26,659 nucleotides of DNA from a virus: IMG/VR virus record IMGVR_UViG_3300037189_014662, positions 1-26,659 of that record; one strand, given 5' to 3'. A model generated the notes under the pieces. That model had not been told where the DNA came from and did no database searches. It was given only the letters and a program-made list of their open reading frames with translations. Every line of letters begins with the position of its first letter. The stretch's first letter is position 1. A program made the position numbers and the translations under genes. This document shows positions 925-21,994 of the stretch, in pieces.

Positions 925-1069
925 CAACGGGTGGAGGTAAAAAAATTAACGGCCTGCACCATCGGGAAAAGTTAATATTTTTACCTCCAACCCCCGCCGG
1001 CCCCGCTTGAACAACCTATGAACAACTTTCCACAATTTTTTACCTCCAACCCCCCTACCGAAGGCCCAG
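925..1069. repeat. Spacer with three GAGGTAAAAA motifs and an 18-bp inverted repeat
   Basis: Between the holin and the next gene. GAGGTAAAAA lies at 934-943 (+) and, on the minus strand, at 978-987 and 1037-1046. The first two sit in an inverted repeat, 933-950 against 971-988, matching at 17 of 18 positions, with an ACGGCCTGC-containing loop. The string TTTTTACCTCCAACCCCC occurs at both 978 and 1037. There is no T-run that would make this a classical terminator in the rightward direction. Confidence 0.65.
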
Positions 1070-2011
1070 ATGTCCGAAGTTATTAAGTTTGAAACCGAAG
1101 GTCCCAAAGACGACCCATCGGATCGCGAACCACATTTAGATACTCCGCTTGACTTGCGGCCTGACCTTTCGGAACTCGGTATCATAGAGCACGAACGCGG
1201 CGTGTGCGATGACAACTACGAGAACCGTGGCACACTGCGGCGAGCCCATTTAAACTGGGATCCGGTCTATGATGCAACCGGCTCGGCCACCGGACTCATT
1301 GCGGCCAGGTCCGCAGAGTCAATGCGCGAACGGCGTGTCCTTTCCTTGGCGGAGAAGCGGCCTGTCCTAACGGATCCTAAAAATAATAACTCGGATTACC
1401 TAACCGGTGTTGATCTTCTAATTGATGAACAGGCCTGCCAAATTGTTCCACCGTGGGTTGTCGGAGCTACCCGTAAATGGGTGGGCGAACAAAACGAACC
1501 AACGGCGAGCAACAAGAAGCAACCGGCAGTTCTCCCAGCTCGGTGCCGCATTGTGAAGTCAGACGGTCTGCGCTGTATGTTATGGTCATCGGGTCGTGTC
1601 AAGGATGACGGCCTGTGCAGAGCACACCTTAAGACTCAACGCAAACCTGGCGAGGACGTAGAGCGTGCCCGTCGCAAGTTGATCCAAGCCGCACCATACG
1701 CCGTTGATGTTCTTGAAGATATGATGGAAAACGCTGAGTCCGAACCGGTGAAGTTGAAAGCCGCTACCGAAATCCTAGACCGTGCCGGCGTGCGAGGCGG
1801 CTCGGAACTGAGTGTGGACGTTGAAGTCAATGACGCTAGACCGCCACACATAATTGTTGCCGAACGGCTGCAGCGGCTTGCTTCTGGAGCAGCTCACGTT
1901 GCTTCCCAGCTGGTGGAGAAAAATAACATTATTGACGCAGAAATAGTTGAAAATTCAACCGCCGAGGTAAAAAAACCAAACGGCTTGCCTGACAAAGACG
2001 GCGAGGCCTAA
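1070..2011 (+). CDS. Unknown phage protein with Zn-type Cys/His motif and helical domain; possible small-terminase-like
   Basis: 313 residues, ATG start. The N-terminal 150 residues are charged and low in recognisable motifs. Residues 159-186 carry C-x9-C-x13-C-x2-H (C159, C169, C183, H186), a likely zinc site. Residues 195-250 read ERARRKLIQAAPYAVDVLED followed by EPVKLKAATEILDRAGVRGG. This helical pattern is common in phage proteins sometimes annotated as terminase small subunits or as of unknown function. The C-terminus (about 290-313) is polar. GAGGTAAAAA lies inside the coding sequence at 1964-1973, read as Glu-Val-Lys. The neighbour starts two bases after the stop, suggesting one operon. 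A packaging role is a guess from the helical region only; the large terminase subunit is not next to it. Confidence 0.6.
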   Translation: MSEVIKFETEGPKDDPSDREPHLDTPLDLRPDLSELGIIEHERGVCDDNYENRGTLRRAHLNWDPVYDATGSATGLIAARSAESMRERRVLSLAEKRPVLTDPKNNNSDYLTGVDLLIDEQACQIVPPWVVGATRKWVGEQNEPTASNKKQPAVLPARCRIVKSDGLRCMLWSSGRVKDDGLCRAHLKTQRKPGEDVERARRKLIQAAPYAVDVLEDMMENAESEPVKLKAATEILDRAGVRGGSELSVDVEVNDARPPHIIVAERLQRLASGAAHVASQLVEKNNIIDAEIVENSTAEVKKPNGLPDKDGEA

Positions 2012-2013
2012 CC

Positions 2014-2202
2014 GTGGAAAAAAATATTATAGAAGCAGCGGCGAGACTAAGCGGCGAGCTAACCGCAGATATTATTATGTCCAAGACCCGAGAGGAACAT
2101 ATCCGAGTAACGGCCAGGGCAAACGCAGCCCTTGAGCTACTGCACATGCTAACGGACAACAGATTGGATTCAATCTCAGCTGCCGAGGTAAAAAATAAAT
2201 AG
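2014..2202 (+). CDS. Small helical protein of unknown function
   Basis: 62 residues from a GTG start two bases after the preceding stop, so probably translated by coupling. The sequence is predicted helical (AAARLSGELTADIIM, then TREEHIRVTARANAALELLH) and ends in AAEVKNK. The last codons are the GAGGTAAAAA motif at 2185-2194, the same placement as in the upstream gene, which also ends with the motif near its 3' end. No domain is recognised. The helical content and coupling suggest that it may partner the upstream protein. Confidence 0.5.
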   Translation: MEKNIIEAAARLSGELTADIIMSKTREEHIRVTARANAALELLHMLTDNRLDSISAAEVKNK

Positions 2203-2212
2203 CGGCCTGCCC

Positions 2213-2309
2213 TTGATTTATTAAGCCAACCGTGTTAAGCTAGAACTGTTTCCGACTGGGAAGGCGGGAACACGGATAAGCCCTAGACCCACAAGGTCCG
2301 GGGTTTTTT
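2213..2309 (+). ncRNA. Candidate small RNA ending in an intrinsic terminator
   Basis: A promoter-like TTGATT-17-TAAGCT (2213-2241) precedes a transcript of about 65 bases with two hairpins and no credible start codon. The first hairpin is a 7-bp stem GTTTCCG / CGGGAAC with the purine-rich loop ACTGGGAAGG. The second pairs CCC and GACC with GGTC and GGG around loop CACAA (2281-2303) and is followed by six T. The unit resembles a stand-alone sRNA. Its target is unknown, and it might instead be a read-through terminator with a chance promoter. Confidence 0.4.
2280..2309 (+). terminator. Intrinsic terminator
   Basis: Hairpin CCCtaGACC / GGTCcgGGG with loop CACAA followed by TTTTTT. It would end both the candidate small RNA and any read-through from the 1070-2202 operon. 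Confidence 0.8.
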
Positions 2310-2732
2310 CGTTTAAACGGACGACGAAATCCGCAGCGGACGCAGCTGGATCAGAAAAGATAATAAAAATAAAAAATAAGGCTTTTTGCCTCTTTTTGAA
2401 AAATTTTAACGGCCTGCTTTAGCCCATTGCCTAAAGGGGTTTTTGCCTGGGTACGCCTGGGTACGTGGGTACGCCTGGGTACGCTTTCCCCGCAACAGGA
2501 AAAAATAATAAACAGCCCGCAGACCGGACGGACCGCAGCTGAGCTTAAAACCCCATAAGCCGTAACTTATCCACAAATTTTTACCTCCCCTACGGCTGGG
2601 CCTTCAGCTGAAAAAATATTAACCACTAGCAGCTGACCGGCCGGCTTATCCGGCAGAGGCTTAGCCCGCCAAGGTAAAAAATCCGCTCAGCTAAACCCGC
2701 AGCTGAAATTTAAAAATAATTAATAGATGATG

Positions 2733-2761
2733 TTGAAAATGTCAGTGGGTAAGTGTATGAT
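2733..2761 (+). promoter_or_regulatory. TGTCAG-class promoter
   Basis: TTGAAA-17-TATGAT, with TGTCAG one base after the -35 box and ten bases before the -10 box. It drives the gene at 2791; ribosome site GGAAGGAG lies at about 2774-2781. Confidence 0.75.
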
Positions 2762-2790
2762 GAATTTATAACGGAAGGAGATAAGTCACC

Positions 2791-3189
2791 GTGGCTTATA
2801 TGACACAAGAAAAGAAAGCAAAGATAGCTCCGCAAGTTAAGAGCATTCTTAAAAAGCACGGTCTGAAAGGATCGCTATCAGTGGAGAACCACAGCACACT
2901 GGTACTTAAAATTTCGGAAGGGTCAATTGACTTTTACGAAAACCTAATGGAAACAGCCAGAGCAACCGGCCAGGAAACTCAATACATAACTAAAGAAATT
3001 GATGTTAATCCTTACTGGTATCACAAACACTTCTCGGGCTACCCAAAGGAAGTTGTCGGCGAGCTTCTGGCTGCTATGAATGACGGCAACCACGATCGCA
3101 GTAACGCGCAGATCGACTACTTCGATGTTGGCTGGTACGTAAACTTCCACATCGGAACTTACAAAAAGCCGTACCTGCTAGAGCTGTAA
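2791..3189 (+). CDS. Conserved phage protein of unknown function
   Basis: 132 residues, GTG start after a GGAAGGAG site. The pattern is APQVKSILKKHGLKGSLSVE near the N-terminus, INPYWYH-type aromatic residues after about residue 70 (DVNPYWYHKHFSG), and a C-terminal 'DYFDVGWYVNFHIGTYKKPY' block. From memory this arrangement (lysine-rich N-terminal helix, NxYWYxxHFSG, AMNxGNHDxSxxQxDYFDVGWY) is a widespread phage/plasmid family with no assigned function. It stands as a single-gene unit between a TGTCAG-class promoter and a strong terminator. Confidence 0.8.
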   Translation: MAYMTQEKKAKIAPQVKSILKKHGLKGSLSVENHSTLVLKISEGSIDFYENLMETARATGQETQYITKEIDVNPYWYHKHFSGYPKEVVGELLAAMNDGNHDRSNAQIDYFDVGWYVNFHIGTYKKPYLLEL

Positions 3190-3204
3190 GCACGGCGAGC
3201 AAAT

Positions 3205-3231
3205 GCCCCCCTCACGGGGGGCTTTGTTTTT
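3205..3231 (+). terminator. Intrinsic terminator
   Basis: GCCCCCC / GGGGGGC stem with tetraloop TCAC, followed by CTTTGTTTTT. Confidence 0.9.
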
Positions 3232-3385
3232 GCCCAAATGCGATGATGCCCGCAAACATCCTCCGGAAAAAATAATAAGTATTTTTTTGCGGGGCCACGG
3301 AATCGTTCCGTGCAAAAATAAATTAAAAGTTTTTTGAGCCCGCTTCAGGTCGCCGGTCTGCTCCGAGGTAAAAATTCTAAAAAAC
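3232..3385. repeat. Terminator-to-promoter spacer with GAGGTAAAAA
   Basis: No gene. It contains GAGGTAAAAATT at 3365-3376, preceded by TCC as in other spacers, plus an inverted ACGGAA / TTCCGT pair at about 3297-3311. It has the same mixed GC-rich and poly-A character as the other spacers. Confidence 0.6.
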
Positions 3386-3414
3386 TTGCATTTTGAAAAT
3401 AAATACTTTATGAT
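3386..3414 (+). promoter_or_regulatory. Promoter for a leaderless gene
   Basis: TTGCAT-17-TATGAT followed by exactly six bases and then the ATG at 3421. No ribosome site exists, so transcription should start at the start codon. There is no TGTCAG element here. Confidence 0.7.
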
Positions 3415-3420
3415 AAAAAA

Positions 3421-3717
3421 ATGATTGAACTATTACTTCTCTATAACTTATCCAGCTTGCGTGACGAGCTGCGAGAACCTTCAGACACACGCGCTGAAAT
3501 AATTTTGTTTATAGCGGTGGCTCAAATCTTTATCTGGCCGATAACTCTTTTTGCGTTGATTAAACGCATCGGTGTGCGCACGGTGATCGCCCTTTCTGCC
3601 GTGGCAGCTTTTACGGCGACGACCCTAGTCTTTGATTGGACATTTTATTTCCTTGCCGGCTTCGCGGCTTTCTTAATTGGTACAGCGTTCCTAGCCTATT
3701 TAATCTTGCAGGACTAG
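3421..3717 (+). CDS. Small membrane protein, probably leaderless
   Basis: 98 residues. After a charged N-terminal segment (SLRDELREPSDTRAE, about 11-25) there are three hydrophobic stretches at about 26-46, 52-70 and 73-95, so an integral membrane protein with three helices is likely. No family is recognised; holin-like, superinfection-exclusion and other membrane roles are all possible. The ATG lies six bases after a -10 box with no Shine-Dalgarno sequence. Its G+C content and length differ from the soluble acidic genes downstream. Confidence 0.65.
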   Translation: MIELLLLYNLSSLRDELREPSDTRAEIILFIAVAQIFIWPITLFALIKRIGVRTVIALSAVAAFTATTLVFDWTFYFLAGFAAFLIGTAFLAYLILQD

Positions 3718-3722
3718 ATAAC

Positions 3723-3751
3723 TTAAAAATGTCAGTACCCCGTGATTTACT
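3723..3751 (+). promoter_or_regulatory. TGTCAG-class promoter, leaderless
   Basis: Weak -35 TTAAAA, then A, TGTCAG, ten bases and TTTACT. The ATG of the next gene (3758) is six bases after the -10 box. Confidence 0.55.
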
Positions 3752-3757
3752 ACAGGT

Positions 3758-3931
3758 ATGACAAACACGCATAACACACCAGACACAACCGCTAACTACC
3801 TAGGCCTGCTACTGCTAATGGGGTTCGCCCCAGAGAAGTTGGAGAAGTTCGGTCAGGAAGTTGAAGTACCAGAAGGTGCGGTCGAGGATCGCATAATTGA
3901 GCTAATCGAACTTCGTGAAGGATGGAGGTAA
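3758..3931 (+). CDS. Small acidic protein, unknown
   Basis: 57 residues starting MTNTHNTPDTTANYLGLLLL and ending in an acidic amphipathic helix (EDRIIELIELREGWR). The ATG is where transcription is predicted to begin, so it should be leaderless; no ribosome site is present. The stop codon is inside GGAGGTAAAGG, which also supplies the ribosome site of the next gene, so the two are tightly linked. No family is recognised. Confidence 0.5.
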   Translation: MTNTHNTPDTTANYLGLLLLMGFAPEKLEKFGQEVEVPEGAVEDRIIELIELREGWR

Positions 3932-3934
3932 AGG

Positions 3935-4207
3935 GTGAGTAAAACCCACAGTAAAGGGCGAGGAACTAACTTGCTCCCACGGATCTATCGGCCAGCCCGA
4001 GTTGTTAATTTGACACATCGGCGAGGACGTGTATACAATGACTATAAGCCGAAAGAGCAAACCGCTAAAGTAGCGGGCGTAAGCCTTAAGGCGAATCGCA
4101 CGGTCTGGGAGTTTTTCTCCTTAGTTAATCCCAGGCTTTTTGGAGGCGCGTTGTCCCGGCACTTGCGAACACGGGACACCTACACAATGACGAAGGAAGT
4201 AAGGTAA
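3935..4207 (+). CDS. Basic small protein, unknown
   Basis: 90 residues from a GTG start, six bases after GGAGG. The product is strongly basic (many Arg/Lys, e.g. RIYRPARVVNLTHRRGR) in contrast to nearly all its neighbours, which would suit nucleic-acid binding. No domain is recognised. It is the second gene in a run of five closely spaced genes (3758-4828). Confidence 0.45.
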   Translation: MSKTHSKGRGTNLLPRIYRPARVVNLTHRRGRVYNDYKPKEQTAKVAGVSLKANRTVWEFFSLVNPRLFGGALSRHLRTRDTYTMTKEVR

Positions 4208-4215
4208 AAATAATA

Positions 4216-4428
4216 ATGCAGCAAACAAGAATAATAAAAGTTGGACCGCTTTCGGTCTGGGTTGGCTTTGACGAAGGCGAGTCACGCACGGTCGGCTTGG
4301 TACTTACACCACTAAACCGAGTAGCTATTGGAGTGGATCTCACTTTAAGTTTCTACTTCTCACAGATTAGTATCTCTATCTCAAAGGATAGCTTGACTAA
4401 TGATGAATGGTTGGACTCATACCGATGA
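4216..4428 (+). CDS. Small protein, unknown
   Basis: 70 residues. The start is preceded by AAGGTAAAAATAATA, a variant of the dispersed GAGGTAAAAA motif here placed where a ribosome site should be. The sequence looks beta-rich (IIKVGPLSVWVGFDEGE, VGLVLTPLNRVAIGVDLTLS). The stop codon overlaps the ATG of the HTH gene, suggesting translational coupling. No family is recognised. Confidence 0.5.
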   Translation: MQQTRIIKVGPLSVWVGFDEGESRTVGLVLTPLNRVAIGVDLTLSFYFSQISISISKDSLTNDEWLDSYR

Positions 4429-4646
4429 TTAACGAAAAAACAGGAATGGACTGGCTGCGAGCCAGGATGGAGAAGCTCGACTACAAATCCCTTGAGGAAG
4501 TTGCAGTTGAACTCGGAATCAACCGAGGCAATCTCTACCGGTACTTCTCACTCGAGAACCGACCAAGCGTTGCAATGCTTCCGGTGATGTGTGAAGTGTT
4601 TAAGGTAAAAACTGACGAAGTGCTCCGTGCACTGGAAGTGGTGTAA
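4425..4646 (+). CDS. Cro/CI-type helix-turn-helix DNA-binding protein
   Basis: 73 residues from the ATG that overlaps the previous stop (ATGA); an in-frame ATG at 4407 would add six residues. Residues 22-45 (SLEEVAVELGINRGNLYRYF) form a clear XRE-like helix-turn-helix. The rest (SVAMLPVMCEVFKVKTDEVL) matches the last helices of the Cro fold, in which a choice of transcriptional regime depends on operator binding. It is the only small single-domain HTH protein in the window, so it is one candidate regulator of the repeated promoter elements; that is inference. A known immunity repressor would usually be longer. Confidence 0.72.
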   Translation: MINEKTGMDWLRARMEKLDYKSLEEVAVELGINRGNLYRYFSLENRPSVAMLPVMCEVFKVKTDEVLRALEVV

Positions 4647-4648
4647 AA

Positions 4649-4828
4649 ATGTTAAACAACTTTAAAACCAAACGCGTGGTAAAAAAAGAAACACAGTACC
4701 TCGGAGATTTACAAACTATGGTGTTAAAAGATCCCACACCGGAATCCGATGAAGCTATGGTTCGTTACCTAATCGACAGTATTGCTTGGCTGGATAGCTT
4801 TGACGACCGGCCGGCCGCTAAAGTTTAA
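4649..4828 (+). CDS. Small protein, unknown
   Basis: 59 residues beginning MLNNFKTKRVVKKETQ, with a basic N-terminus and an acidic amphipathic C-terminal half (SDEAMVRYLIDSIAWLDSFDD). It starts two bases after the HTH gene and ends just before a terminator, so it is the last gene of the 3758-4828 operon. No family is recognised. Confidence 0.5.
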   Translation: MLNNFKTKRVVKKETQYLGDLQTMVLKDPTPESDEAMVRYLIDSIAWLDSFDDRPAAKV

Positions 4829-4842
4829 CTAAATAAAAAAGA

Positions 4843-4889
4843 AGCCCATTAAACCAGCGCGGGACGTTGGAATGGGCTCTTTATTTTTT
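4843..4889 (+). terminator. Intrinsic terminator
   Basis: AGCCCATT / AATGGGCT stem with a 20-base loop that can pair further (CCA / TGG), followed by CTTTATTTTTT. Confidence 0.85.
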
Positions 4890-4893
4890 GCGC

Positions 4894-4922
4894 TCAAAAA
4901 TGTCAGTCCCTTGATCTATAAT
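4894..4922 (+). promoter_or_regulatory. TGTCAG-class promoter
   Basis: Weak -35 TCAAAA, A, TGTCAG, ten bases, consensus TATAAT. An ATG follows six bases after the -10 box (4929), the same leaderless geometry as at 3421. Confidence 0.7.
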
Positions 4923-4928
4923 GAAATT

Positions 4929-5042
4929 ATGACACACGCACAAAGGGATAGAGGTGAGAACGTGAACCTAGAAGACAAGATGATCGGTTGGGATTACTTG
5001 CTAGATGAAGATGGTAATCGCATCTTCGTTAGCGTCAAGTAA
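4929..5042 (+). CDS. Very short protein with two possible starts
   Basis: 37 residues if begun at the leaderless ATG (MTHAQRDRGENVNLEDKM, ending RIFVSVK), or 26 residues from an in-frame GTG at 4962 that has a GAGGTGAG site just upstream. Both signals look real, so the first 11 codons may be either coding or a leader that carries the ribosome site. The core GWDYLLDEDGNRIFVSV resembles a short beta-hairpin with an acidic turn. Function unknown. Confidence 0.45.
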   Translation: MTHAQRDRGENVNLEDKMIGWDYLLDEDGNRIFVSVK

Positions 5043-5102
5043 GACTAGCCTAACGCTTTCAGCACCTGGGTAGGTGGATAAACTGCCCACACCAATTTGA
5101 AT

Positions 5103-5132
5103 TTGACAAATGTCAGACCCATAATGTATTAT
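5103..5132 (+). promoter_or_regulatory. TGTCAG-class promoter with leader hairpin
   Basis: TTGACA-18-TATTAT with full TGACA-AA-TGTCA symmetry. The leader has a perfect 9-bp hairpin at 5141-5163 (stem TAGTTAAAC / GTTTAACTA, loop AAAGG), directly followed by the ribosome site GGGAGG. Confidence 0.85.
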
Positions 5133-5180
5133 AGAGTTATTAGTTAAACAAAGGGTTTAACTAAGGGAGGAACCAACACA

Positions 5181-5423
5181 GTGAACAAGTTACCAATTTC
5201 AGCAGTAGGCGAATGCGACACCTGCGGATGGACTCGCGTTAGCGACTTCGACCAGTACGACAACGACCTAAACGCAGACTCGCTAGATGCAAACTGCGAC
5301 ACCTGCTACAACACAGTGACAGTCTATGTCAAAGACTTAGACTCACCTGCAACAGAATGGACACCGCGCCCAAAGCTCGAAGTCTATTCAGCAATCTACG
5401 GAAACAAGTTAGGGGAAGTGTAA
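5181..5423 (+). CDS. Zinc-ribbon protein
   Basis: 80 residues from a GTG start after AAGGGAGG. Two CxxC pairs (CDTC at about 13-16 and CDTC at about 40-43) with 23 residues between them define a compact zinc ribbon; the C-terminal part (PRPKLEVYSAIYGNK) is extended. Such small phage zinc ribbons may bind nucleic acid or a host protein, but a target cannot be assigned. The stop overlaps the next ATG (TAATG). Confidence 0.65.
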   Translation: MNKLPISAVGECDTCGWTRVSDFDQYDNDLNADSLDANCDTCYNTVTVYVKDLDSPATEWTPRPKLEVYSAIYGNKLGEV

Positions 5424-5719
5424 TGACATTTAGCAAAGTAGAAGAGTACGTGCAAACTGCACAAGGTATCTCGTTTGATGGTTGTCACAAGATTTACGTT
5501 TTGATGGATGACCAGCAAGTTGAGCAAAGCATGGAGTGGGGCTATGGCCAAGATGGAAGCTTTCTTGCCACTGACCTAAGCCCCGAGGAAATGCTCATCG
5601 TACTTAAAAACTGGTACGAGAATTCCTGTGGCCTTAGGTTTATCGAAGCTGTGACAACTAATCGTGAAGATCCAAACGAGGGGTTTGAAACTTTGATTCC
5701 GCAGGGATTTGAAGACTAA
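5423..5719 (+). CDS. Small acidic protein, unknown
   Basis: 98 residues. The ATG overlaps the stop of the zinc-ribbon gene, and an upstream in-frame ATG at 5357 would lie inside that gene, so 5423 is chosen. The product is acidic with 'SMEWGYGQDGSFLATDLSPE' followed by a helix EEMLIVLKNWYENSCGLRFI. No family is recognised. It is coupled to the zinc-ribbon gene and they form a two-gene unit. Confidence 0.6.
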   Translation: MTFSKVEEYVQTAQGISFDGCHKIYVLMDDQQVEQSMEWGYGQDGSFLATDLSPEEMLIVLKNWYENSCGLRFIEAVTTNREDPNEGFETLIPQGFED

Positions 5720-5720
5720 T

Positions 5721-5749
5721 TCAAAAATGTCAGTCCTAAATGTTATTAT
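5721..5749 (+). promoter_or_regulatory. TGTCAG-class promoter
   Basis: Degenerate -35 TCAAAA, A, TGTCAG, ten bases ending in an extended -10 TG, then TATTAT. A short TTATT / AATAA hairpin lies in the leader at 5754-5768, followed by AAGGGAGG. Confidence 0.7.
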
Positions 5750-5785
5750 AGATTTATTAGTCCAATAAGGGAGGAATACAAAACA

Positions 5786-6068: not shown

Positions 6069-6097
6069 TTGACAATGTCAGATTAGTGCCTTATTAT
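6069..6097 (+). promoter_or_regulatory. TGTCAG-class promoter, first of a tandem pair
   Basis: TTGACA, A, TGTCAG, ten bases, TATTAT. A second TGTCAG at 6135-6140 with TTATTATAG downstream may be a degenerate second promoter. The leader carries a perfect 9-bp hairpin at 6162-6182 (stem TTAGTTAGA / TCTAACTAA, loop AAG), then AGAAGGGAG. Confidence 0.75.
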
Positions 6098-10452: not shown

Positions 10453-10469
10453 CCAATTCCATAAAGAAG

Positions 10470-10495
10470 CCCGCACTCGGTGCGGGTTTTCTTTT
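10470..10495 (+). terminator. Intrinsic terminator
   Basis: CCCGCAC / GTGCGGG stem with loop TCG, then TTTTCTTTT. Confidence 0.9.
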
Positions 10496-11287: not shown

Positions 11288-11317
11288 TTGACAAATGTCA
11301 GAGGCTAGGTGTATGAT
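11288..11317 (+). promoter_or_regulatory. TGTCAG-class promoter
   Basis: TTGACA-AA-TGTCAG, ten bases, TATGAT. Transcription should start near 11324, just before the long hairpin at 11326. Confidence 0.85.
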
Positions 11318-12734: not shown

Positions 12735-12968
12735 ATGAGCGAGGTAAAAATTATGCCGGAAAAAATTAACGTGATAAAGGTTGTCACTTATGACTTTCAA
12801 AAAATCTCGGATGACATGTTCGAGGCGACCGGTCTTCGGCCAATCCACGTTGCCGAAGCTGTGGACTGGATCGAACCTTGGGTGCTAGAAGATTTCGGTT
12901 GCGGTTATGGCCATGAGCCAGCTTTACGCGACCTAATCTTTCAAGACGAGAACGGTGAAGATCTCTAA
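12735..12968 (+). CDS. Small acidic protein, unknown; ambiguous start
   Basis: 77 residues from the ATG at 12735. GAGGTAAAAA at 12741-12750 lies just after this start and is followed, two bases on, by a second in-frame ATG (12753), so the motif could act as ribosome site for a 71-residue form. The product has a Trp-rich acidic middle (AEAVDWIEPWVLEDFGCGYG) and an acidic end. No family is recognised. Last gene of the 12180-12968 unit. Confidence 0.55.
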   Translation: MSEVKIMPEKINVIKVVTYDFQKISDDMFEATGLRPIHVAEAVDWIEPWVLEDFGCGYGHEPALRDLIFQDENGEDL

Positions 12969-15154: not shown

Positions 15155-15180
15155 GGCGGCCACGGCCGCCTTTTCTTTTG
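15155..15180 (+). terminator. Intrinsic terminator
   Basis: GGCGGC / GCCGCC stem with loop CACG, then TTTTCTTTT. Confidence 0.9.
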
Positions 15181-15962: not shown

Positions 15963-15976
15963 CCCAACCAAAGATG

Positions 15977-16003
15977 CCCCCGCCTAGCGCGGGGGTTTTC
16001 TTG
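15977..16003 (+). terminator. Intrinsic terminator
   Basis: CCCCCGC / GCGGGGG stem with loop CTAGC, then TTTTCTTG. Confidence 0.9.
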
Positions 16004-16087
16004 TTTCCGGACACAGCTGCCGAGGTAAAAATTACAGCTGCGAGCTGTTTTCCGGCTGCGGGCAGAAAAGATAATTAAGGGTTTGGA
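16004..16087. repeat. Spacer with GAGGTAAAAA, CAGCTG and AAAAGATAAT
   Basis: CAGCTGCC, GAGGTAAAAATT (16022), ACAGCTGCGAGCTG, CCGG and GCAGAAAAGATAATT occur in this order. Twenty-one bases from 16020 are identical to 10505-10525. No gene. Confidence 0.7.
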
Positions 16088-16116
16088 TTAAAAATGTCAG
16101 TGCCCTATGGTACATT
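16088..16116 (+). promoter_or_regulatory. TGTCAG-class promoter with leader hairpin
   Basis: TTAAAA, A, TGTCAG, ten bases, TACATT. The leader hairpin GAGGTT / AACCTC at 16125-16141 has loop AGGGA, followed by AAAAGGAG. Confidence 0.75.
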
Positions 16117-16421: not shown

Positions 16422-16435
16422 AAAGAGAAGGAACA

Positions 16436-16463
16436 CCCCCGTAGCGTTGCGGGGGTTTTTCTT
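16436..16463 (+). terminator. Intrinsic terminator
   Basis: CCCCCG / CGGGGG stem with an eight-base loop, then TTTTTCTTT. Confidence 0.9.
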
Positions 16464-16591: not shown

Positions 16592-16621
16592 TTGACAAAT
16601 GTCAGGGGTATGCTGTAACCT
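16592..16621 (+). promoter_or_regulatory. TGTCAG-class promoter with leader hairpin
   Basis: TTGACA-AA-TGTCAG, ten bases, TAACCT. The leader hairpin at 16629-16647 has a 7-bp stem TCAAGTC / GACTTGA with loop AAAGG, extendable by GTAT / ATAC. GAAGGAGA follows. Confidence 0.8.
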
Positions 16622-16855: not shown

Positions 16856-16869
16856 GACAAAAGGAAAAG

Positions 16870-16927: not shown

Positions 16928-16974
16928 TCAATTATGAAGTCAAGGGGGCTTCATAGAAAGAAGGGCAGGTAAAA

Positions 16975-17076: not shown

Positions 17077-17084
17077 CTCAAATA

Positions 17085-17226
17085 AGAGTTGTGCTAAAGT
17101 TGAAGAGTTCCGTCGAGCGGGTCTTTTCTCCCTTCGTCCCAGCTCCGGAATACGGATAGGGTATTCCCTTTAACCTATCCCTAAGCGCGTCACCTTATTC
17201 CCTTTTGGTGGCGCGTTTAGTTTTTG
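17085..17226 (+). ncRNA. Candidate structured noncoding RNA with terminator
   Basis: No coding sequence is seen over 230 bases, but several stems can be drawn. TTCCG / CGGAA encloses a GCGGG...CCC-type hairpin (about 17107-17154), GGATAGG / CCTATCC lies at about 17154-17181, and CGCGTCACC / GGTGGCGCG at 17186-17215 is followed by TTTAGTTTTT. The structure and the final terminator suggest an RNA of about 130 bases, either a trailer of the 16975 unit or an independent RNA; no convincing promoter of its own is found. Confidence 0.45.
17186..17226 (+). terminator. Intrinsic terminator
   Basis: CGCGTCACC / GGTGGCGCG stem (one T-G pair), 12-base loop, then TTTAGTTTTTG. Confidence 0.8.
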
Positions 17227-17238
17227 TCTGAGTGCGGT

Positions 17239-17267
17239 TTGACAAACTAAATAGTTGGTAATAGATT
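17239..17267 (+). promoter_or_regulatory. Promoter of the double-HTH gene
   Basis: TTGACA-17-TAGATT, no TGTCAG. A small GTAAT / ATTAC hairpin lies at 17279-17293; the ribosome site is GAAAGG inside AAGGTAAAAA. Confidence 0.65.
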
Positions 17268-17307
17268 GAATAAATTAAGTAATGACAAATTACGAGAAAG
17301 GTAAAAA

Positions 17308-17937
17308 ATGTCACGTCTAGAAGGAAAGAAAAAAGTTGTTGTCGGACAACGAACTATTATGCAACAGCATCAAGAGTTGCCGGCCTCAGCACTAAAAACA
17401 ATTGAAGAAATAAAAGCAAGAAACAGTAGTCCGGACAGAGATGAATACATCAAAATGCTCCGTGAAGCTGGGTGGACACTACAAAGTATTGCTAGTGCAC
17501 ATGGGATGACTCGTGAACGCGTGCGACAGATTGCGGCAGAGCCTCGCATGTACTTTGAAGATGTCAAGTCTTTGGAAGTGCCAGTAGCTCCAAATCGAAC
17601 TGTCGATGTGTTTAAGTCAGTTGAGGTAGAACTAGATCCCGCGGTGACTGCAAGAATGATTGAACTTTCTGCACTAGCTCGAAAGCCTATAACTAACTCT
17701 GCAGAAGCCTTTGAGTTTGTTGCATTACTGAATCAGGAGATTGAACGCGGAGTAAGTGGTATTCGCTTAGCCAAGGTTTTGGGTATTAACCACTCGTCAA
17801 TTTATGCTCGGTTGGCCAGATACGGTTATCGGGAAACCAAGGCTGTATCAAAGCACATGCAATTAAATAAAATGCTTATTCGCGAGGGCTACTCACCTGA
17901 AGAAGCATTAGTCAAGACTTTAGCCGAGGCTAAATAA
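17308..17937 (+). CDS. Protein with two helix-turn-helix segments (regulator-like)
   Basis: 209 residues. Residues 51-77 (LREAGWTLQSIASAHGMTRERVRQIA) closely resemble the sigma-70 region 4 / LuxR-type HTH signature, with RERVRQI as recognition helix. A second HTH lies at about 145-173 (GVSGIRLAKVLGINHSSIYARL). The C-terminal tail SPEEALVKTLAEAK is helical. It could be a transcription regulator; it lacks the -10 binding regions of a complete sigma factor. The structural-operon protein at 23876 has the same layout (a GW(S/T)L-type HTH near the N-terminus and a second HTH near the C-terminus). It stands alone between two promoters. Confidence 0.72.
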   Translation: MSRLEGKKKVVVGQRTIMQQHQELPASALKTIEEIKARNSSPDRDEYIKMLREAGWTLQSIASAHGMTRERVRQIAAEPRMYFEDVKSLEVPVAPNRTVDVFKSVEVELDPAVTARMIELSALARKPITNSAEAFEFVALLNQEIERGVSGIRLAKVLGINHSSIYARLARYGYRETKAVSKHMQLNKMLIREGYSPEEALVKTLAEAK

Positions 17938-17946
17938 AAGATGTGC

Positions 17947-17975
17947 TTGACTTTATCAGGTAGACGTGTTACCTT
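17947..17975 (+). promoter_or_regulatory. Promoter with degenerate TGTCAG element
   Basis: TTGACT, T, TATCAG (for TGTCAG), ten bases ending TGT, TACCTT. GGAAAGGAG precedes the ATG at 18003. Confidence 0.65.
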
Positions 17976-18002
17976 TGTGTCATAGGCGGAAAGGAGAACA
18001 AA

Positions 18003-18230
18003 ATGCCTAAGTTAAAGTCAGACTTTCACACTCTGTACTACAGCGGTTTGGAAGGCGCAACAATCGTACGGTTCATAGAGATGCGAGGCGACGAATTCGG
18101 TGGGAAACCATTCCCAGTATTCCTAGTCAAGTTTGCTGATGGGTCGAACGGAGAGATTGAGATCTCGCAAGATGAGGAAGGTAATGGTGGCGGGTTCGTA
18201 TTTGGACTGCCAAGCCCGTTCATCGACTAA
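18003..18230 (+). CDS. Conserved small phage protein, unknown
   Basis: 75 residues. 'GLEGATIVRFIEMRGDEFGGKPFPVFLVKFADG' then 'EIEISQDEEGNGGGFVFGLPSP' is a recognisable phage family pattern (IxxF...PFPVFxVxFxDG, (I/V)EISQDEEGNGGGF(I/V)FG), of unknown function. A beta-barrel-like small fold is plausible. Unit with its own promoter and terminator. Confidence 0.8.
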   Translation: MPKLKSDFHTLYYSGLEGATIVRFIEMRGDEFGGKPFPVFLVKFADGSNGEIEISQDEEGNGGGFVFGLPSPFID

Positions 18231-18243
18231 GAAGTACGGAAAG

Positions 18244-18272
18244 CCCCTTGCGAAAGCAGGGGGTTTTTCTAT
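18244..18272 (+). terminator. Intrinsic terminator
   Basis: CCCCTTGC / GCAGGGGG stem with GAAA tetraloop, then TTTTTCTATTTT; the next -35 box follows at 18277. Confidence 0.9.
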
Positions 18273-18276
18273 TTTC

Positions 18277-18305
18277 TTGACTTATCCGGATTGGTTAGGT
18301 AGGTT
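18277..18305 (+). promoter_or_regulatory. Promoter of a leaderless gene
   Basis: TTGACT-17-TAGGTT followed by six bases and the ATG at 18312. No ribosome site. Confidence 0.65.
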
Positions 18306-18311
18306 AAAGGT

Positions 18312-18536
18312 ATGAAGTATTCAGTAACAATGATGACCTCACGAGGCAGGGAGGTAAAAATTCCTATGGGCAGGGCCCAAGCCAGCCTCGGATTAGCAAT
18401 TGCGTATGCTCACAAACAGCTATCGCTAAATAAATCCTCTGCTGTTGCAATCATTAGAGAAGTAAGCCTCGGAGGAACTAGCAAAGTAGTCAAGACAGTT
18501 TCCCAAAGTGACAGACACACCAGCGTTCTGAAGTAG
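18312..18536 (+). CDS. Small basic protein, leaderless
   Basis: 74 residues: MKYSVTMMTSRGREVKIPMG, then ASLGLAIAYAHKQLSLNKSSAVAIIREVSLGG. Strand-strand-helix-strand plan with positive charge. GAGGTAAAAATT at 18351 encodes Glu-Val-Lys-Ile. The start codon coincides with the predicted transcription start. No family is recognised. Confidence 0.6.
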   Translation: MKYSVTMMTSRGREVKIPMGRAQASLGLAIAYAHKQLSLNKSSAVAIIREVSLGGTSKVVKTVSQSDRHTSVLK

Positions 18537-18572
18537 TAAATTCAAGGAAAAATAGCCCTTGTAGAACTGCGG

Positions 18573-18585
18573 TAATCTCGCTAGT
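18573..18585 (+). promoter_or_regulatory. Possible -10 box for a leaderless gene
   Basis: TAATCT (18573-18578) seven bases before the ATG at 18586, with no ribosome site between. No good -35 box at the normal distance, so support is weak. Confidence 0.35.
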
Positions 18586-18861
18586 ATGAACAAACTAGAA
18601 ATTGTCCAGAGCGCATACCACGCCAACCGTGCAGGGGAATCCTTTGTCGTTGCTATCGTTGATGACGCGGAGAACGATGACACCAAGCTGGTAATTATGT
18701 TTGAGGACGATGGATACACTGCGGTTCTATCTTTAGATCAACTTATTGACGAGGAAGATATCTCGGAAAAAACTAATAACTGGGATCCAATTAAATACGA
18801 AGAACGCCTTCGTACGGCTCTCTGGGATGACGAAGACGATTCATACGAATTCGAGTACTAA
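18586..18861 (+). CDS. Acidic small protein, unknown
   Basis: 91 residues: MNKLEIVQSAYHANRAGESF, then FVVAIVDDAENDDTKLVIMFEDDGYTAVLSLDQL and an acidic end (LWDDEDDSYEFEY). Beta-rich and strongly acidic. The following gene starts three bases after the stop, so the two are probably co-transcribed. No family is recognised. Confidence 0.6.
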   Translation: MNKLEIVQSAYHANRAGESFVVAIVDDAENDDTKLVIMFEDDGYTAVLSLDQLIDEEDISEKTNNWDPIKYEERLRTALWDDEDDSYEFEY

Positions 18862-18864
18862 GTT

Positions 18865-19434
18865 ATGACAACTATTGCTGCTATTCAAGGTGATGGTTGG
18901 TCAGTTGTTGGCTACGACTCTCGCCTATCCCGTGGGGATTCTGGCGGTCGCATTTACACATTACCTAAAGGCAATGGAAAAGTTGTAAAAAGGGATAGAT
19001 ACTTAATTGGCGCGGCCGGTGACTTAAGAGCAATTAACTTAGTTTCCGATGTAATCAAGCTGCCAGACCCTGGAGAACTTACCGGAGCTAAGCTGGATAA
19101 ATTTTTTACCACGGCAGTAGTTCCAACTATCCGGACTTGCTTTGAAGCTGCGGGATACGGAAAAGATGGAGCTCAGGAATCTCAACTAATAGTTTCTATA
19201 GCTGGCCAGCTCTTTGAGCTTGGTGAAGGTTATGAGTGGAGTAAAGACACAAGTGGGCTTTACGGAATTGGTAGCGGTGGAGATTACGCAATAGGATCAT
19301 TACACTCAATCGTTGAAAAGAATTGCTCTATTGAAGAAGCTAAGGACTACATTAAGACTGCACTTGCGGTTGCCATAAGTTTAGATCCATCTTCAGGTGG
19401 GCCTATCAACATAGTTACACAGGAAAATTTTTAA
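18865..19434 (+). CDS. Proteasome beta / HslV-like N-terminal nucleophile hydrolase
   Basis: 189 residues. After removal of Met, Thr2 becomes the N-terminal residue in TTIAAIQGDG, as in HslV/proteasome beta subunits. Counting Thr2 as 1, an Asp falls at 17 (GYDSR), as in HslV. The Lys expected at 33 is probably one of K34/K38 in a loop with a small insertion. Residues 134-145 (GIGSGGDYAIGSL) match the conserved GSGG segment, and helices follow. It should be a threonine-type peptidase or a relative that has kept the fold. No ATPase of the HslU/ARC type is adjacent; the only AAA+ protein in the window is the MoxR one. ATG three bases after the previous stop. Confidence 0.75.
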   Translation: MTTIAAIQGDGWSVVGYDSRLSRGDSGGRIYTLPKGNGKVVKRDRYLIGAAGDLRAINLVSDVIKLPDPGELTGAKLDKFFTTAVVPTIRTCFEAAGYGKDGAQESQLIVSIAGQLFELGEGYEWSKDTSGLYGIGSGGDYAIGSLHSIVEKNCSIEEAKDYIKTALAVAISLDPSSGGPINIVTQENF

Positions 19435-19445
19435 GTAAGAGTAGT

Positions 19446-19473
19446 TTGACAAACCCCGTGAAGGTCATAGACT
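19446..19473 (+). promoter_or_regulatory. Promoter of a leaderless gene
   Basis: TTGACA-16-TAGACT followed by six bases and the ATG at 19480. No ribosome site. Confidence 0.6.
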
Positions 19474-19479
19474 TTTAGA

Positions 19480-19752
19480 ATGACTGAACTTACACGGGAA
19501 CAAATTGAACTTAGCCTCTCCGAGCACGATGAATCTATTCTGCTGATGGATGGTTTTGATTCCGCTTTCTTGGGGACAGCGAAGCGAATAAATCAGCCAA
19601 CACTTGCGGTCTACTCTTGGGAAAAGATGGTAGATGTTTTGATTAGCCGTGATGGTATGGACATGGATGAAGCCATTGAGTTTATTGACTACAACTGTCT
19701 AGGTGCTTGGGTCGGAGAACTGACCCCAATTATTGTTATGCCTTTGGACTAA
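19480..19752 (+). CDS. Conserved small phage protein, unknown, leaderless
   Basis: 90 residues. 'DGFDSAFLGTAKRINQPTLAVYSWEKMVDVLISRDGMDMDEAIEFIDYNCLGAWVGE' fits a widespread phage family (F-D-x-A-(I/F)-L-G, VYxxExxxxxLxxRDGMxxxEAxEFIxYNxxGAxxGExTP) with no known function. The start coincides with the predicted transcription start. A terminator follows and the next two genes are on the other strand. Confidence 0.8.
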   Translation: MTELTREQIELSLSEHDESILLMDGFDSAFLGTAKRINQPTLAVYSWEKMVDVLISRDGMDMDEAIEFIDYNCLGAWVGELTPIIVMPLD

Positions 19753-19760
19753 AAGAAAAA

Positions 19761-19788
19761 GCCCCCCTTTCGGGAGGCTCTTTCCTTT
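19761..19788 (+). terminator. Intrinsic terminator between convergent genes
   Basis: GCCCCCC / GGGAGGC stem (one mismatch) with loop TTTC, then TCTTTCCTTT. On the minus strand it is followed by CTTTTTCTTTT, so it can serve both directions. Confidence 0.85.
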
Positions 19789-19791
19789 GGC

Positions 19792-19998
19792 TTATTCGCC
19801 TTTGGCTTTCTGAATTACTTTCATACAACGCTGGCATTCAAAGTCTGCGCCAGTTCCGTTAGAAGCAACTACTCGATAGCGTGAATTACATCTTGCTTGA
19901 ACGCTGTCATCTTTGGCTAGGTGTATCCAGTTTGTGCTGGAATCCTGTACGAAATTAAAACCTAGCTCCCGTGCTACGGCTATTGTGTAGAAAATCAC
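19792..19998 (-). CDS. Small zinc-motif protein, unknown
   Basis: 68 residues from a GTG at 19998 that follows AGAGGAGA; longer readings to 20070 would cross the promoter and leader hairpin and are rejected. It opens MIFYTIAVARELGFNFVQDS. A CxxC pair at about 55-58 (CQRC) with an earlier Cys at 37 could bind zinc. The C-terminal VIQKAKGE is basic. The gene has the same promoter and leader design as the rightward genes. Confidence 0.6.
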   Translation of the reverse strand: MIFYTIAVARELGFNFVQDSSTNWIHLAKDDSVQARCNSRYRVVASNGTGADFECQRCMKVIQKAKGE

Positions 19999-20041
19999 TT
20001 TGTTCTCCTCTTTAGTTGCTCCCTTGCAACCTGATAGAACT

Positions 20042-20070
20042 ATCATAACACACCTATCTGACAAATGCAA
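20042..20070 (-). promoter_or_regulatory. TGTCAG-class promoter (leftward) with leader hairpin
   Basis: Reading leftward: TTGCAT, T, TGTCAG, ten bases ending TGT, TATGAT. The leader hairpin at 20030-20015 has stem GTTGC / GCAAC with loop AAGGGA, followed by AGAGGAGA. Confidence 0.8.
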
Positions 20071-20170
20071 GTTTATTTCTAAATTTCTTTTTGTCCGGCC
20101 AACCAGCTAAATCCGGCAGCCGCTTGTAGCGGACTGGAGGTAAAAAAACCAGCTGCGGGAGCTCAAAAGA
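20071..20170. repeat. Spacer with GAGGTAAAAA and CAGCTG
   Basis: GTCCGGCC, CCAGCTAAATCCGGCAGCCG, GAGGTAAAAA at 20137-20146 on the plus strand although both flanking genes run leftward, then CCAGCTGCGGGAGCTC. No gene. Confidence 0.6.
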
Positions 20171-20173
20171 ATA

Positions 20174-20195
20174 CCCCCCGCCTAGCGGCGAGGGG
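20174..20195 (-). terminator. Intrinsic terminator of the leftward 20404 gene
   Basis: Leftward: CCCCtCGCC / GGCGgGGGG-type stem with loop GCTA, then TATTCTTTT. Confidence 0.75.
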
Positions 20196-20209
20196 TTCTT
20201 TGGTTTTGA

Positions 20210-20404
20210 TTAGACAGGCATTGCGGTAATCGCGTAAGTGTCTAAACGATCACGGAAATCTTTTCCGTGTATTTGGTAACCAATCTCGATGCCTTGGTCA
20301 ATAATAATGTTTGACGTTTCTTCATCTAGATGGTTGATGTTGCTCTCAACAAGAACATCTGCTTCGCCGTTGTTTCCAACGAAAGATACTTTGTAAGTAT
20401 TCAC
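20210..20404 (-). CDS. Small protein, unknown
   Basis: 64 residues, GTG at 20404 after GAAAGGAG: MNTYKVSFVGNNGEADVLVE, then ETSNIIIDQGIEIGYQIHGK and a short C-terminal strand. Beta-rich. Its first residues resemble those of the 5786 gene product (MNTYRVTMVV), so the two may be distant paralogues. Single-gene unit with promoter and terminator. Confidence 0.6.
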   Translation of the reverse strand: MNTYKVSFVGNNGEADVLVESNINHLDEETSNIIIDQGIEIGYQIHGKDFRDRLDTYAITAMPV

Positions 20405-20438
20405 TGCTGGGGGTTTCTCCTTTCTTCCAGTTAATGAA

Positions 20439-20467
20439 ATCTTACAATACTTCTATGACAAAAGCAA
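20439..20467 (-). promoter_or_regulatory. TGTCAT-variant promoter (leftward)
   Basis: Leftward: TTGCTT, T, TGTCAT, ten bases ending TG, TAAGAT. It faces away from the phosphatase promoter at 20532. Confidence 0.7.
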
Positions 20468-20531
20468 ACTGGGTTTATAACGGTTTGATAACAAACTAAA
20501 GCCCTTGCGGTTATTATCTTTTTAGGCCGAT

Positions 20532-20560
20532 TTGACAATGATAGCCTTTCGTGTTACCCT
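20532..20560 (+). promoter_or_regulatory. Promoter of the phosphatase gene
   Basis: TTGACA-17-TACCCT; ATGATAG stands where ATGTCAG is found elsewhere. A 5-bp CTTAA / TTAAG hairpin at 20559-20576 overlaps the predicted start; GAGAGGGAG follows. Confidence 0.65.
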
Positions 20561-20590
20561 TAAAGTAATCCTTAAGAGAGGGAGAACACA

Positions 20591-21181
20591 ATGACAAAAA
20601 ACACAAATACGAAAACTAAACAAACAACTGGCGGGATTGAAGCTCCTGACTACTCAGACTTCATTGACGGTATGCCTCTATGGAGTAACGTTCTTCACGG
20701 GCTCTGGGTAGGCGGAACAGATGACAACGACACCCTAGGCGATCACCACGCTTGGAGTGGTAGACAAGCCTTTATTACGCCTGAGATGTTTGACACGGTA
20801 GTGACTATGTACCAATACGCCAATCCAGTTGATTGGTTAGTAAAGGAATACCGCTACTGTATCTACGACTCAGACGTAAACCACTTTGACTGGGCTGAAC
20901 TATTTGCTACGGCTAAATTCGCTCACACCGAGTGGCAGAATGGGAAGCGTGTGCTAATCCGTTGCCAAGCAGGGCTCAATCGTTCCGGACTTGTTACGGC
21001 TCTTGTGCTAATCCGTGAGGGTTTTTCACCTGAAGAAGCGATTGCCTTACTCAGAGAGAAGCGAAGTTCTATGGCCTTATTCAATAAGCAGTTCGTTCAG
21101 TTCCTTAAAACGATTGACGTTGAGATGTGGCGCGGAGATGCCTTTGTAGATACCAGCGTGTCGAGTGTTGACATAGACTAA
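20591..21181 (+). CDS. Dual-specificity / tyrosine phosphatase-like protein
   Basis: 196 residues. The P-loop VLIRCQAGLNRSGLVTAL gives C125-x5-R131 and a following Ser-Gly, the cysteine-phosphatase signature CxxGxxRS. The residue before Cys is Arg rather than the usual His. Acidic residues in IYDSDVNHFDW (D93, D95) are candidates for the general acid. The N-terminal 90 residues contain VLHGLWVGG, the usual opening 'I-x-x-x-L-(Y/W)-(V/L)-G' of DSP domains. It would remove phosphate from host or phage proteins or from nucleotides. The promoter of the next gene lies in its 3' end. Confidence 0.82.
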   Translation: MTKNTNTKTKQTTGGIEAPDYSDFIDGMPLWSNVLHGLWVGGTDDNDTLGDHHAWSGRQAFITPEMFDTVVTMYQYANPVDWLVKEYRYCIYDSDVNHFDWAELFATAKFAHTEWQNGKRVLIRCQAGLNRSGLVTALVLIREGFSPEEAIALLREKRSSMALFNKQFVQFLKTIDVEMWRGDAFVDTSVSSVDID

Positions 21182-21197
21182 AGAAGTGTGATACCTT
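21168..21197 (+). promoter_or_regulatory. Promoter inside the 3' end of the phosphatase gene, with leader hairpin
   Basis: TTGACA-18-TACCTT. The leader hairpin GTCGC / GCGAC at 21204-21217 has loop AAGG; AAAAGGAG follows. Confidence 0.65.
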
Positions 21198-21235
21198 TAG
21201 AAAGTCGCAAGGGCGACAAAACAAAAGGAGAAACA

Positions 21236-21394
21236 ATGAACCTCACAAAGCGTGGAGTTATAGTACGAAACATTTCTATCGTTCTACTAGTTCTTGTAGC
21301 GTTTGTAGTGGCTGAAAGAGTAACCACACCAGATGCTTGCAAGGTAGACGTTAATCAAATGTCGCAAGGTTGCAAGGACTTGCTCTACCCATAA
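21236..21394 (+). CDS. Small secreted or membrane-anchored protein
   Basis: 52 residues: MNLTKRGVIVRNISIVLLVL with a basic N-terminus and a hydrophobic helix at about 11-26, then a short extracellular part with two Cys (DACKVDVNQMSQGCKDLLYP) that might form a disulphide. The ATG at 21236 follows AAAAGGAG; an upstream in-frame ATG overlaps the promoter. The plan (signal anchor plus short Cys-containing tail) is common in phage superinfection-exclusion or lysis accessory proteins; not assignable. Confidence 0.6.
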   Translation: MNLTKRGVIVRNISIVLLVLVAFVVAERVTTPDACKVDVNQMSQGCKDLLYP

Positions 21395-21400
21395 GGGTAG
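21385..21400 (+). other. Short hairpin between two membrane-protein genes
   Basis: CTACCC / GGGTAG stem with loop ATAA overlaps the stop codon of the 21236 gene; no U-run, so it may stabilise or partly end the transcript. Confidence 0.4.
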
Positions 21401-21426
21401 GGCCTGTCCTATTTCTAAGGAGAAAA

Positions 21427-21579
21427 ATGAATAACATCAACATTGTTTGGACAGCAGTTCTTTCAGCTGTCTGCGGTATTGGTTGCATAGTATCTGCACT
21501 TGCACACAACACGGACTTGGTAATTGCCCTTGGTCTTGTTTCAATTTCATCTGCTCTTCTGGCTGGCCGCGAGCTCTAA
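21427..21579 (+). CDS. Small membrane protein
   Basis: 50 residues, ATG after AAGGAG: two hydrophobic helices, at about 6-26 (IVWTAVLSAVCGIGCIVSAL) and 30-46 (LVIALGLVSISSALLAG). No charged domain. It overlaps no neighbour but is close behind the 21236 gene, so they may work as a pair. Holin-like by size and shape, without any motif. Confidence 0.55.
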   Translation: MNNINIVWTAVLSAVCGIGCIVSALAHNTDLVIALGLVSISSALLAGREL

Positions 21580-21661
21580 GGTAAAAATTTACTGAACTAG
21601 GCTGCTGATCCCTAAATTATAATTAGATTCAACAGTCCTAGAAGAAACAGGTAGACACACT

Positions 21662-21994
21662 ATGTCAGAAGAATCTACTCCTGCAGAAGAACTAACTGAA
21701 GTTGCAGAAGTCTTAGAAGAACCAGAAGCAGAAGCGCAAGCAGCTGTTGAAGTAGCTGTTCAGACTGAACCGGCTGCGGCTGAAGAAGAAACTGTAGCAG
21801 TTGTTCCGGAGATCAAAGCTGAGCCGCGAGGTAAAAAATCTAAAGCTGCATCGGAATCTGCGGTGGAAGTTGAGGCAGCTGAGCTGCAAGAAGTTGTTGA
21901 AGTTGTTGTACCAACGCCACCAGCTACACCAGCTGCGGCAACCCCAGCTGTGTCACGCGGAGGACTGTCGATCTCAATTCGCAACAGGCAATAA
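21662..21994 (+). CDS. Low-complexity acidic Ala/Glu/Val-rich protein
   Basis: 110 residues, ATG at 21662. Almost the whole chain is Glu, Ala and Val with scattered Pro (VLEEPEAEAQAAVEVAVQTE), a short Lys-rich island near residues 56-61 (RGKKSKA) and a Pro/Ala/Thr stretch before GGLSISIRNRQ. Probably disordered. A TATAAT box at 21618 may be part of its promoter. GAGGTAAAAA (21828) is read here as Arg-Gly-Lys-Lys. No family; such proteins occur in phage structural or lysis regions. Confidence 0.55.
   Translation: MSEESTPAEELTEVAEVLEEPEAEAQAAVEVAVQTEPAAAEEETVAVVPEIKAEPRGKKSKAASESAVEVEAAELQEVVEVVVPTPPATPAAATPAVSRGGLSISIRNRQ

Follow-up and report, generated by a model that had tools for sequence, protein, structure and literature searches.

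The 26.7-kb linear IMG/VR virus record IMGVR_UViG_3300037189_014662 (positions 1 to 26,659, in the following called the window) carries numerous copies of the asymmetric decamer GAGGTAAAAA, which raises the question of what these sites are for and which protein reads them. After our analysis, GAGGTAAAAA, or in its relaxed form RAGGTAAAAA, probably represents the sites recognized by a regulator of early transcription that the phage itself encodes, the likely regulator being a small protein with two helix-turn-helix (HTH) domains, here named protein A (positions 23876–24355).

Altogether, 19 exact copies of GAGGTAAAAA were located, 15 on the plus and four on the minus strand, in full agreement with the original prediction made from the letters of the window. 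Including seven AAGGTAAAAA variants, the number of RAGGTAAAAA sites amounted to 26 (22 plus, four minus); all seven variants had been listed before, but two of them start at 4201 and 4602 instead of 4200 and 4612. The presumed excess over chance was borne out, as dinucleotide shuffles led to only 0.14 expected copies of GAGGTAAAAA (largest 2; RAGGTAAAAA, 0.26 expected), an order-4 Markov model to 0.4, and an order-5 model, which has the hexamers of GAGGTAAAAA itself built in, to 3.1 copies (largest 9). The rightward preference was likewise found for exact copies (15:4, P=0.019) and for RAGGTAAAAA (22:4, P=0.0005). As predicted, thirteen of the 19 exact copies are not fully coding, in a window whose DNA is 77% coding (P=3e-5), and according to the list of open reading frames five of the six coding copies are read in the Glu-Val-Lys frame, the exception at 21828 being read as Arg-Gly-Lys. 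Inspection by eye placed most intergenic copies 3' of a terminator and 5' of a promoter, in line with the context proposed originally, but a strict hairpin search revealed a terminator within 70 nt upstream of only four of the 19 RAGGTAAAAA sites outside called genes (control 5%). Since the words beside GAGGTAAAAA vary from copy to copy, the decamer is a site and not a copied element.

Conservation against differing flanks, which had been suggested as a check, was analyzed by alignment of the window with L084, L009, L010, and L143 (85–95% nucleotide identity), which, like our relatives in general, are metagenomic contigs with simple gene and promoter calls. Eighteen of the 21 alignable decamers were identical in these relatives, compared to 5.8 expected from a local identity of 74–94% (P=5e-9), while two differed by the tolerated A/G and one was lost. 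The conserved decamers included coding copies and copies on the minus strand (978, 1037, 2578).

Motifs of related phages

The window encodes, among others, an AAA ATPase, a VWA protein, and an HslV-like peptidase; a portal protein gene is located at its right end. Its named relatives are actinophages, the nearest being Microbacterium phages such as Pumpernickel and phage DSL-LC01 (VWA 47%, portal 74%), which is metagenome-assembled (2023 paper, PMC10611076). In relatives of 118–136 kb, namely G012 (118 kb), G022 (136 kb), G006 (120 kb), and G027 (127 kb), the respective motif was found almost only in one region of 20–30 kb with short genes and low coding density, which adjoins the AAA and VWA genes and lies away from the long structural genes. 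This region, labeled early based on its gene content, consists of shuffled single-gene units with the motifs in the gaps between them.

The closest relative of the window, L014, shares several genes at 86–99% identity (524, 98%; 22090, 99%; 18865, 93%; 17308, 86%), but possesses no copy of GAGGTAAAAA; instead, it harbors GGAAAAAA (16 plus, four minus), mainly as GGAAAAAAAT. A terminator common to both phages (15971–16002 in the window), without a mismatch over 32 bp, precedes GAGGTAAAAA in the window and GGAAAAAAAT in L014. The L014 motif is present in most mappable window slots, among them the intragenic ones of genes 1070, 13763, and 21662, whereby slot matches at the starts of genes 12735 and 2014 were discounted as conserved coding sequence. 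Dozens of related phages also revealed another asymmetric motif in the corresponding slot, mainly in the gap 5' of a promoter; the motifs of further relatives include GGGGTAAAAAT, AGCAAAAAGTAAAAA, AACTGAAATTTTTT, AACTGAACTTTTTT, GTATCCACTTTTTT, and GTATTCATTTTTT. An exchange of the motif set on this scale between sister phages suggests that its reader is encoded by the phage. An exact search of viral contigs for GAGGTAAAAATTACAGCTG resulted in no matches.

Some enriched words were not accepted as regulator motifs, namely GAAAGGATA in L068, which resembles a ribosome site, and TATAAT-type words in L050, L057, L060–62, and DSL-LC01, which are promoter elements instead. A set of relatives, comprising DSL-LC01 (OQ999401, about 18000–44000), L050, L057, L060–L062, and L324, was devoid of an A/T-tract motif and displayed a strongly repeated promoter word around TATAAT, e.g., AAAGATGTTATAATAG with 17 copies; in such phages, control may have moved into the promoter. 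Phages with GGGTAAAAA (L213, L259, L264, and L272) carry many copies between a TAG stop codon and the next ATG, where they double as ribosome sites.

Protein A and other candidate binders

An AlphaFold model of protein A displayed two HTHs (mean predicted local distance difference test (pLDDT) score 87), and the gene of protein A borders the motif region on its downstream side in all genomes inspected. The asymmetry of the site would be accounted for by a pair of linked HTH domains. The recognition helix of HTH1, KATIHNW, is kept in window relatives with GAGGTAAAAA, and L014 has KSTVHNW. Across about 100 loci, KTT was associated with GGTAAAAA, KST...HFW with AAGTAAAAA, K-ST-[VI]YNW with AACTGAA, and R[ST]T[VI]RSW with T-tract motifs, an association that is partly shared ancestry. 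Motif distance correlated with protein A distance at r=0.53, with a partial r of 0.32 given the portal protein (P=0.001), compared to 0.21 for the portal itself. With respect to L014, protein A and three neighbors form a diverged block (42–60% identity) between genes at 99% and 89%.

Protein A matched no named repressor family above the cut-off, and sequence and fold searches against the PDB resulted in single HTH domains only, with no full-length match. Among 84,980 bacterial genome records, it occurred in one, a contig (L361) of an Aquiluna sp. metagenome-assembled genome carrying the TAGTTATTTTTTC motif; this is probably a phage contig in an Aquiluna bin and as such a host hint for the sister clade described below.

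The products of genes 4425 and 17308, proposed originally as binders, turned out to be poor candidates by their distribution across relatives. XRE protein 4425 is missing in the two phages with GGTAAAAA motifs, G012 and G022, and the 17308 product, also missing in both, is 86% identical in L014 despite the other motif there. Proteins with two HTHs constitute a family with several paralogues per phage, identified in the window (17308–17937 and 23876–24355) as well as in G006, G009, G021, G022, G027, and DSL-LC01. The 17308-type protein, which is not part of the universal set, revealed a sigma-region-4-like HTH (RERVRQI).

Spacing to promoters and mode of action

In a sister clade (GTATnnAnTTTTTT; T-tract motifs, 12 loci), the spacing between T-tract and predicted -10 box peaked at about 60 bp, e.g., with eight sites at 60–61 and three at 70–71 in L291, and with sites at 58, then 68–71, 80–81, and 90 in L314. 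The 45 off-peak sites were displaced from this peak by one or two turns of the helix (V=0.52 for a 10.5-bp period, p=5e-5 vs jitter; as promoters were scored in a simple manner, the sequences are in part related, and sites are not independent, this and the following P values for phasing are indicative). AACTGAA motifs of the G006/L012/L013 type displayed the same phasing tendency. The phased sites of the sister clade suggest that initiation is controlled, and their placement would most simply be that of a factor touching RNA polymerase from upstream, like class I activators.

Several observations weigh against assigning such a role to the sites of the window and their reading to protein A. Helical phasing is absent in the window's own clade (n=102, R=0.08, P=0.5), and the distance between motif and promoter shifts by 2–9 bp between homologous gaps of close relatives. 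The orientation is not strict, as minus-strand copies are conserved too, and the linked neighbors of protein A (24348, 24614, and 25051) co-vary with the motif almost as well as protein A does. Six L014 sites resulted in R=0.79 (P=0.02), a post hoc value that was not relied on. Phased placement was thus observed for the sister clade only, from which we infer the same action for the window's sites.

Class I activator sites of the CRP type lie upstream of the -35 box in helical phase with the promoter, and the alpha subunit of RNA polymerase is contacted. The sister-clade sites resemble them in their position about 60 bp upstream of the -10 box, the fixed helix face, and the one-turn steps. Unlike class I sites, those of the window's clade are unphased, and 10–30 sites are present per phage instead of one or two.

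According to the favored explanation, the early region would consist of short genes that are for the most part transcribed separately, many of them having a promoter and a terminator of their own, and its transcription would be controlled by a sequence-specific phage protein binding RAGGTAAAAA, with protein A as the candidate. The equivalent site of the sister clade would act on initiation from its upstream position, while the loose spacing and the intragenic sites in the window's clade suggest that the sites there may work at a distance or affect elongation. Protein A could be an activator or a repressor. Phage phi29 protein p4 activates a late promoter and represses early promoters (PMC3100819).

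A roadblock as in stoperators, i.e., a bound protein that would halt elongating RNA polymerase after terminators and inside genes and thereby shut off or insulate early units, seems unlikely, though it has several observations on its side. The sites are oriented with transcription (22:4), copies are found 3' of terminators, over stop codons, and within genes, intragenic copies are conserved, with the other motif inside the homologous genes of L014, and promoter phasing is missing in the window's clade. On the other hand, the fixed promoter phase of the sister clade points to initiation, many copies occupy the stretch between a terminator and the next promoter, which should see little elongation, and at least three of the four minus-strand copies are conserved.

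The likeness to stoperators noted originally holds in part. The repressor reading the stoperators of cluster A phages is a monomer with two DNA-binding domains, its asymmetric site being oriented with transcription (PMC9283540), and motif and repressor diverge together in this cluster (PMC6550527). As in cluster A (L5, TipsytheTRex), we found more than 20 asymmetric sites of about 10–13 bp, mainly along transcription and in short intergenic spaces, and a motif that varies between related phages; a monomer with two DNA-binding domains would be the natural reader. The motif may vary together with protein A, for whose neighbors the correlation is nearly as good, as stated above. Unlike stoperators, which are distributed over the genome, the sites are regional in G012, G022, G006, and G027, many of them are located upstream of promoters and not within transcription units, and those of the sister clade are promoter-phased. 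Moreover, L5-type immunity repressors belong to temperate phages, whereas no tyrosine integrase was detected among 11 relatives (seven of which encode a short serine resolvase instead), so that prophage immunity is unlikely, and protein A showed no match to a named repressor family. As the sites share the logic of many direction-biased sites for a phage regulator, but the defining context of stoperators fails, we classified them as dispersed regulator sites and not as stoperators.

Going one step further, and only tentatively, one two-HTH family might read dispersed sites in two ways, promoter-phased and class I-like in one clade and position-free, including intragenic sites, in that of the window, in apparently lytic phages whose lineage-specific early-region codes could be rewritten at about 20 places at once. 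A regulator changing in concert with its entire set of sites has been described mainly for lysogenizing phages (cluster A immunity groups), and the same pattern is seen here in a large group of freshwater actinophages with dozens of motif variants and no integrase found. This group offers a natural experiment on how DNA-binding specificity and about 20 sites change together, and a testable candidate for early-gene control in abundant, uncultured phages.

A site for a host DNA-binding protein (a nucleoid protein or a Chi-like or replication signal) enriched in the phage, which had been offered as an alternative, is improbable. Such sites can be asymmetric, A-tract-containing, and strand-biased as well, but GAGGTAAAAA and its reversed control were similarly rare across 26 actinobacterial genomes (which may not include the true host), the motif is restricted to one phage region, and sister phages with 86–99% identical proteins use different motifs.

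We give slightly less credit still to the idea that the motifs mark cassette boundaries, i.e., short shared sequences where early gene cassettes are exchanged. The shuffled single-gene units with motifs in their gaps fit this idea, but only four of the 18 synteny breakpoints between the window and L010 were within 25 bp of a motif, compared to 2.15 for random intergenic positions (P=0.16), and the fixed promoter phase of the sister clade would not be expected. Promoter early stem-loops of T4-type phages are known for module shuffling. Like these, the sites are repeated elements in intergenic gaps of a shuffled early region beside early promoters; unlike these, they are short asymmetric decamers without a promoter-containing stem-loop, and breakpoints are not significantly nearer to them.

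Ribosome-binding or start-associated sequences mistaken for a separate motif are refuted as a general explanation and highly improbable, though they may account for two or three copies: a GAGG core is present, several copies lie immediately 5' of ATG in the GGGTAAAAA phages L213, L259, and L272, and a start codon follows at ribosome-site distance after 12741, thought originally to be the sole case, and likewise after variant 17298 (AAGGTAAAAAATG), but this applies to only about two to three of the 26 copies, unlike the start-associated sequences of cluster K mycobacteriophages, the usual ribosome sites of this phage resemble AAGGAGAAA, and the same-slot motifs AACTGAAATTTTTT and GTATCCACTTTTTT of relatives cannot be ribosome sites.

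Coordinates and neighboring elements

Table 1. RAGGTAAAAA sites and the putative reader in the window.
Feature	Position	Strand	Context
GAGGTAAAAA	934–943	+	Intergenic, 5' of gene 1070; identical in L084, flanks 85%
GAGGTAAAAA	978–987	-	Intergenic; identical in L084, flanks 87%
GAGGTAAAAA	1037–1046	-	Intergenic; identical in L084, flanks 87%
GAGGTAAAAA	1964–1973	+	Gene 1070 near 3' end, Glu-Val-Lys; L014 homologue has own motif near same 3' end
GAGGTAAAAA	2185–2194	+	3' end of gene 2014; identical in L084, flanks 90%
GAGGTAAAAA	2578–2587	-	Intergenic; identical in L084, flanks 77%
AAGGTAAAAA	2671–2680	+	59 nt 5' of TGTCAG promoter element at 2740; sole alignable site lost in close relative (L084)
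GAGGTAAAAA	3365–3374	+	Intergenic, 5' of gene 3421
AAGGTAAAAA	4201–4210	+	Spans end of gene 3935; identical in L084, L009
AAGGTAAAAA	4602–4611	+	Within gene 4425; identical in L084, L009, L010
AAGGTAAAAA	6019–6028	+	47 nt 5' of TGTCAG promoter element at 6076
GAGGTAAAAA	10507–10516	+	3' of terminator 10466–10490, 5' of promoter 10614; identical in L009, L010, flanks 83%
GAGGTAAAAA	10532–10541	+	Second copy, same gap as 10507
GAGGTAAAAA	11235–11244	+	51 nt 5' of TGTCAG at 11296; L010 has AAGGTAAAAA
AAGGTAAAAA	11847–11856	+	Within gene 11745; L010 has GAGGTAAAAA
GAGGTAAAAA	12741–12750	+	Start of gene 12735; possible ribosome site for ATG at 12753
GAGGTAAAAA	13042–13051	+	Intergenic, 5' of gene 13067
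GAGGTAAAAA	13871–13880	+	Within gene 13763; L014 homologue has own motif elsewhere in gene
GAGGTAAAAA	15198–15207	-	3' of terminator 15155–15170, 5' of gene 15347; L014 motif in same gap
GAGGTAAAAA	16022–16031	+	3' of terminator 15976–15996, 63 nt 5' of TGTCAG at 16095
GAGGTAAAAA	16485–16494	+	3' of terminator 16435–16456, 105 nt 5' of TGTCAG at 16600
AAGGTAAAAA	17298–17307	+	Immediately 5' of ATG of gene 17308; identical in L143, L010
GAGGTAAAAA	18351–18360	+	Within gene 18312
GAGGTAAAAA	20137–20146	+	Between two minus-strand genes
AAGGTAAAAA	21578–21587	+	Spans stop codon of gene 21427; identical in L143
GAGGTAAAAA	21828–21837	+	Within gene 21662; homologue in G005 (L014's contig) has GGAAAAAAAT inside same gene
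Protein A, putative motif binder	23876–24355	+	159 aa; HTH domains at residues 20–54 and 109–157

Other repeated elements were noted in the window as well. A second conserved element, TGTCAG, was detected exactly 10 nt 5' of a TANNNT -10 box in 13 plus-strand cases (2740, 4901, 5111, 5728, 6076, 6135, 10209, 10622, 11296, 12128, 13232, 16095, and 16600), with 0.56 expected by a null covering both strands. It is usually joined to TTGACA as TTGACAAATGTCAG and appears to represent a promoter class of its own or a further regulator site. Furthermore, CAGCTG palindromes repeat in the motif gaps (e.g., 16010–16050 and 2540–2720), often as AGCTGCC-GAGGTAAAAA-TTACAGCTG, and the gap at 2203–2790 contains an imperfect short tandem repeat, GGGTACGCCTGGGTACGCCT, at 2420–2480.

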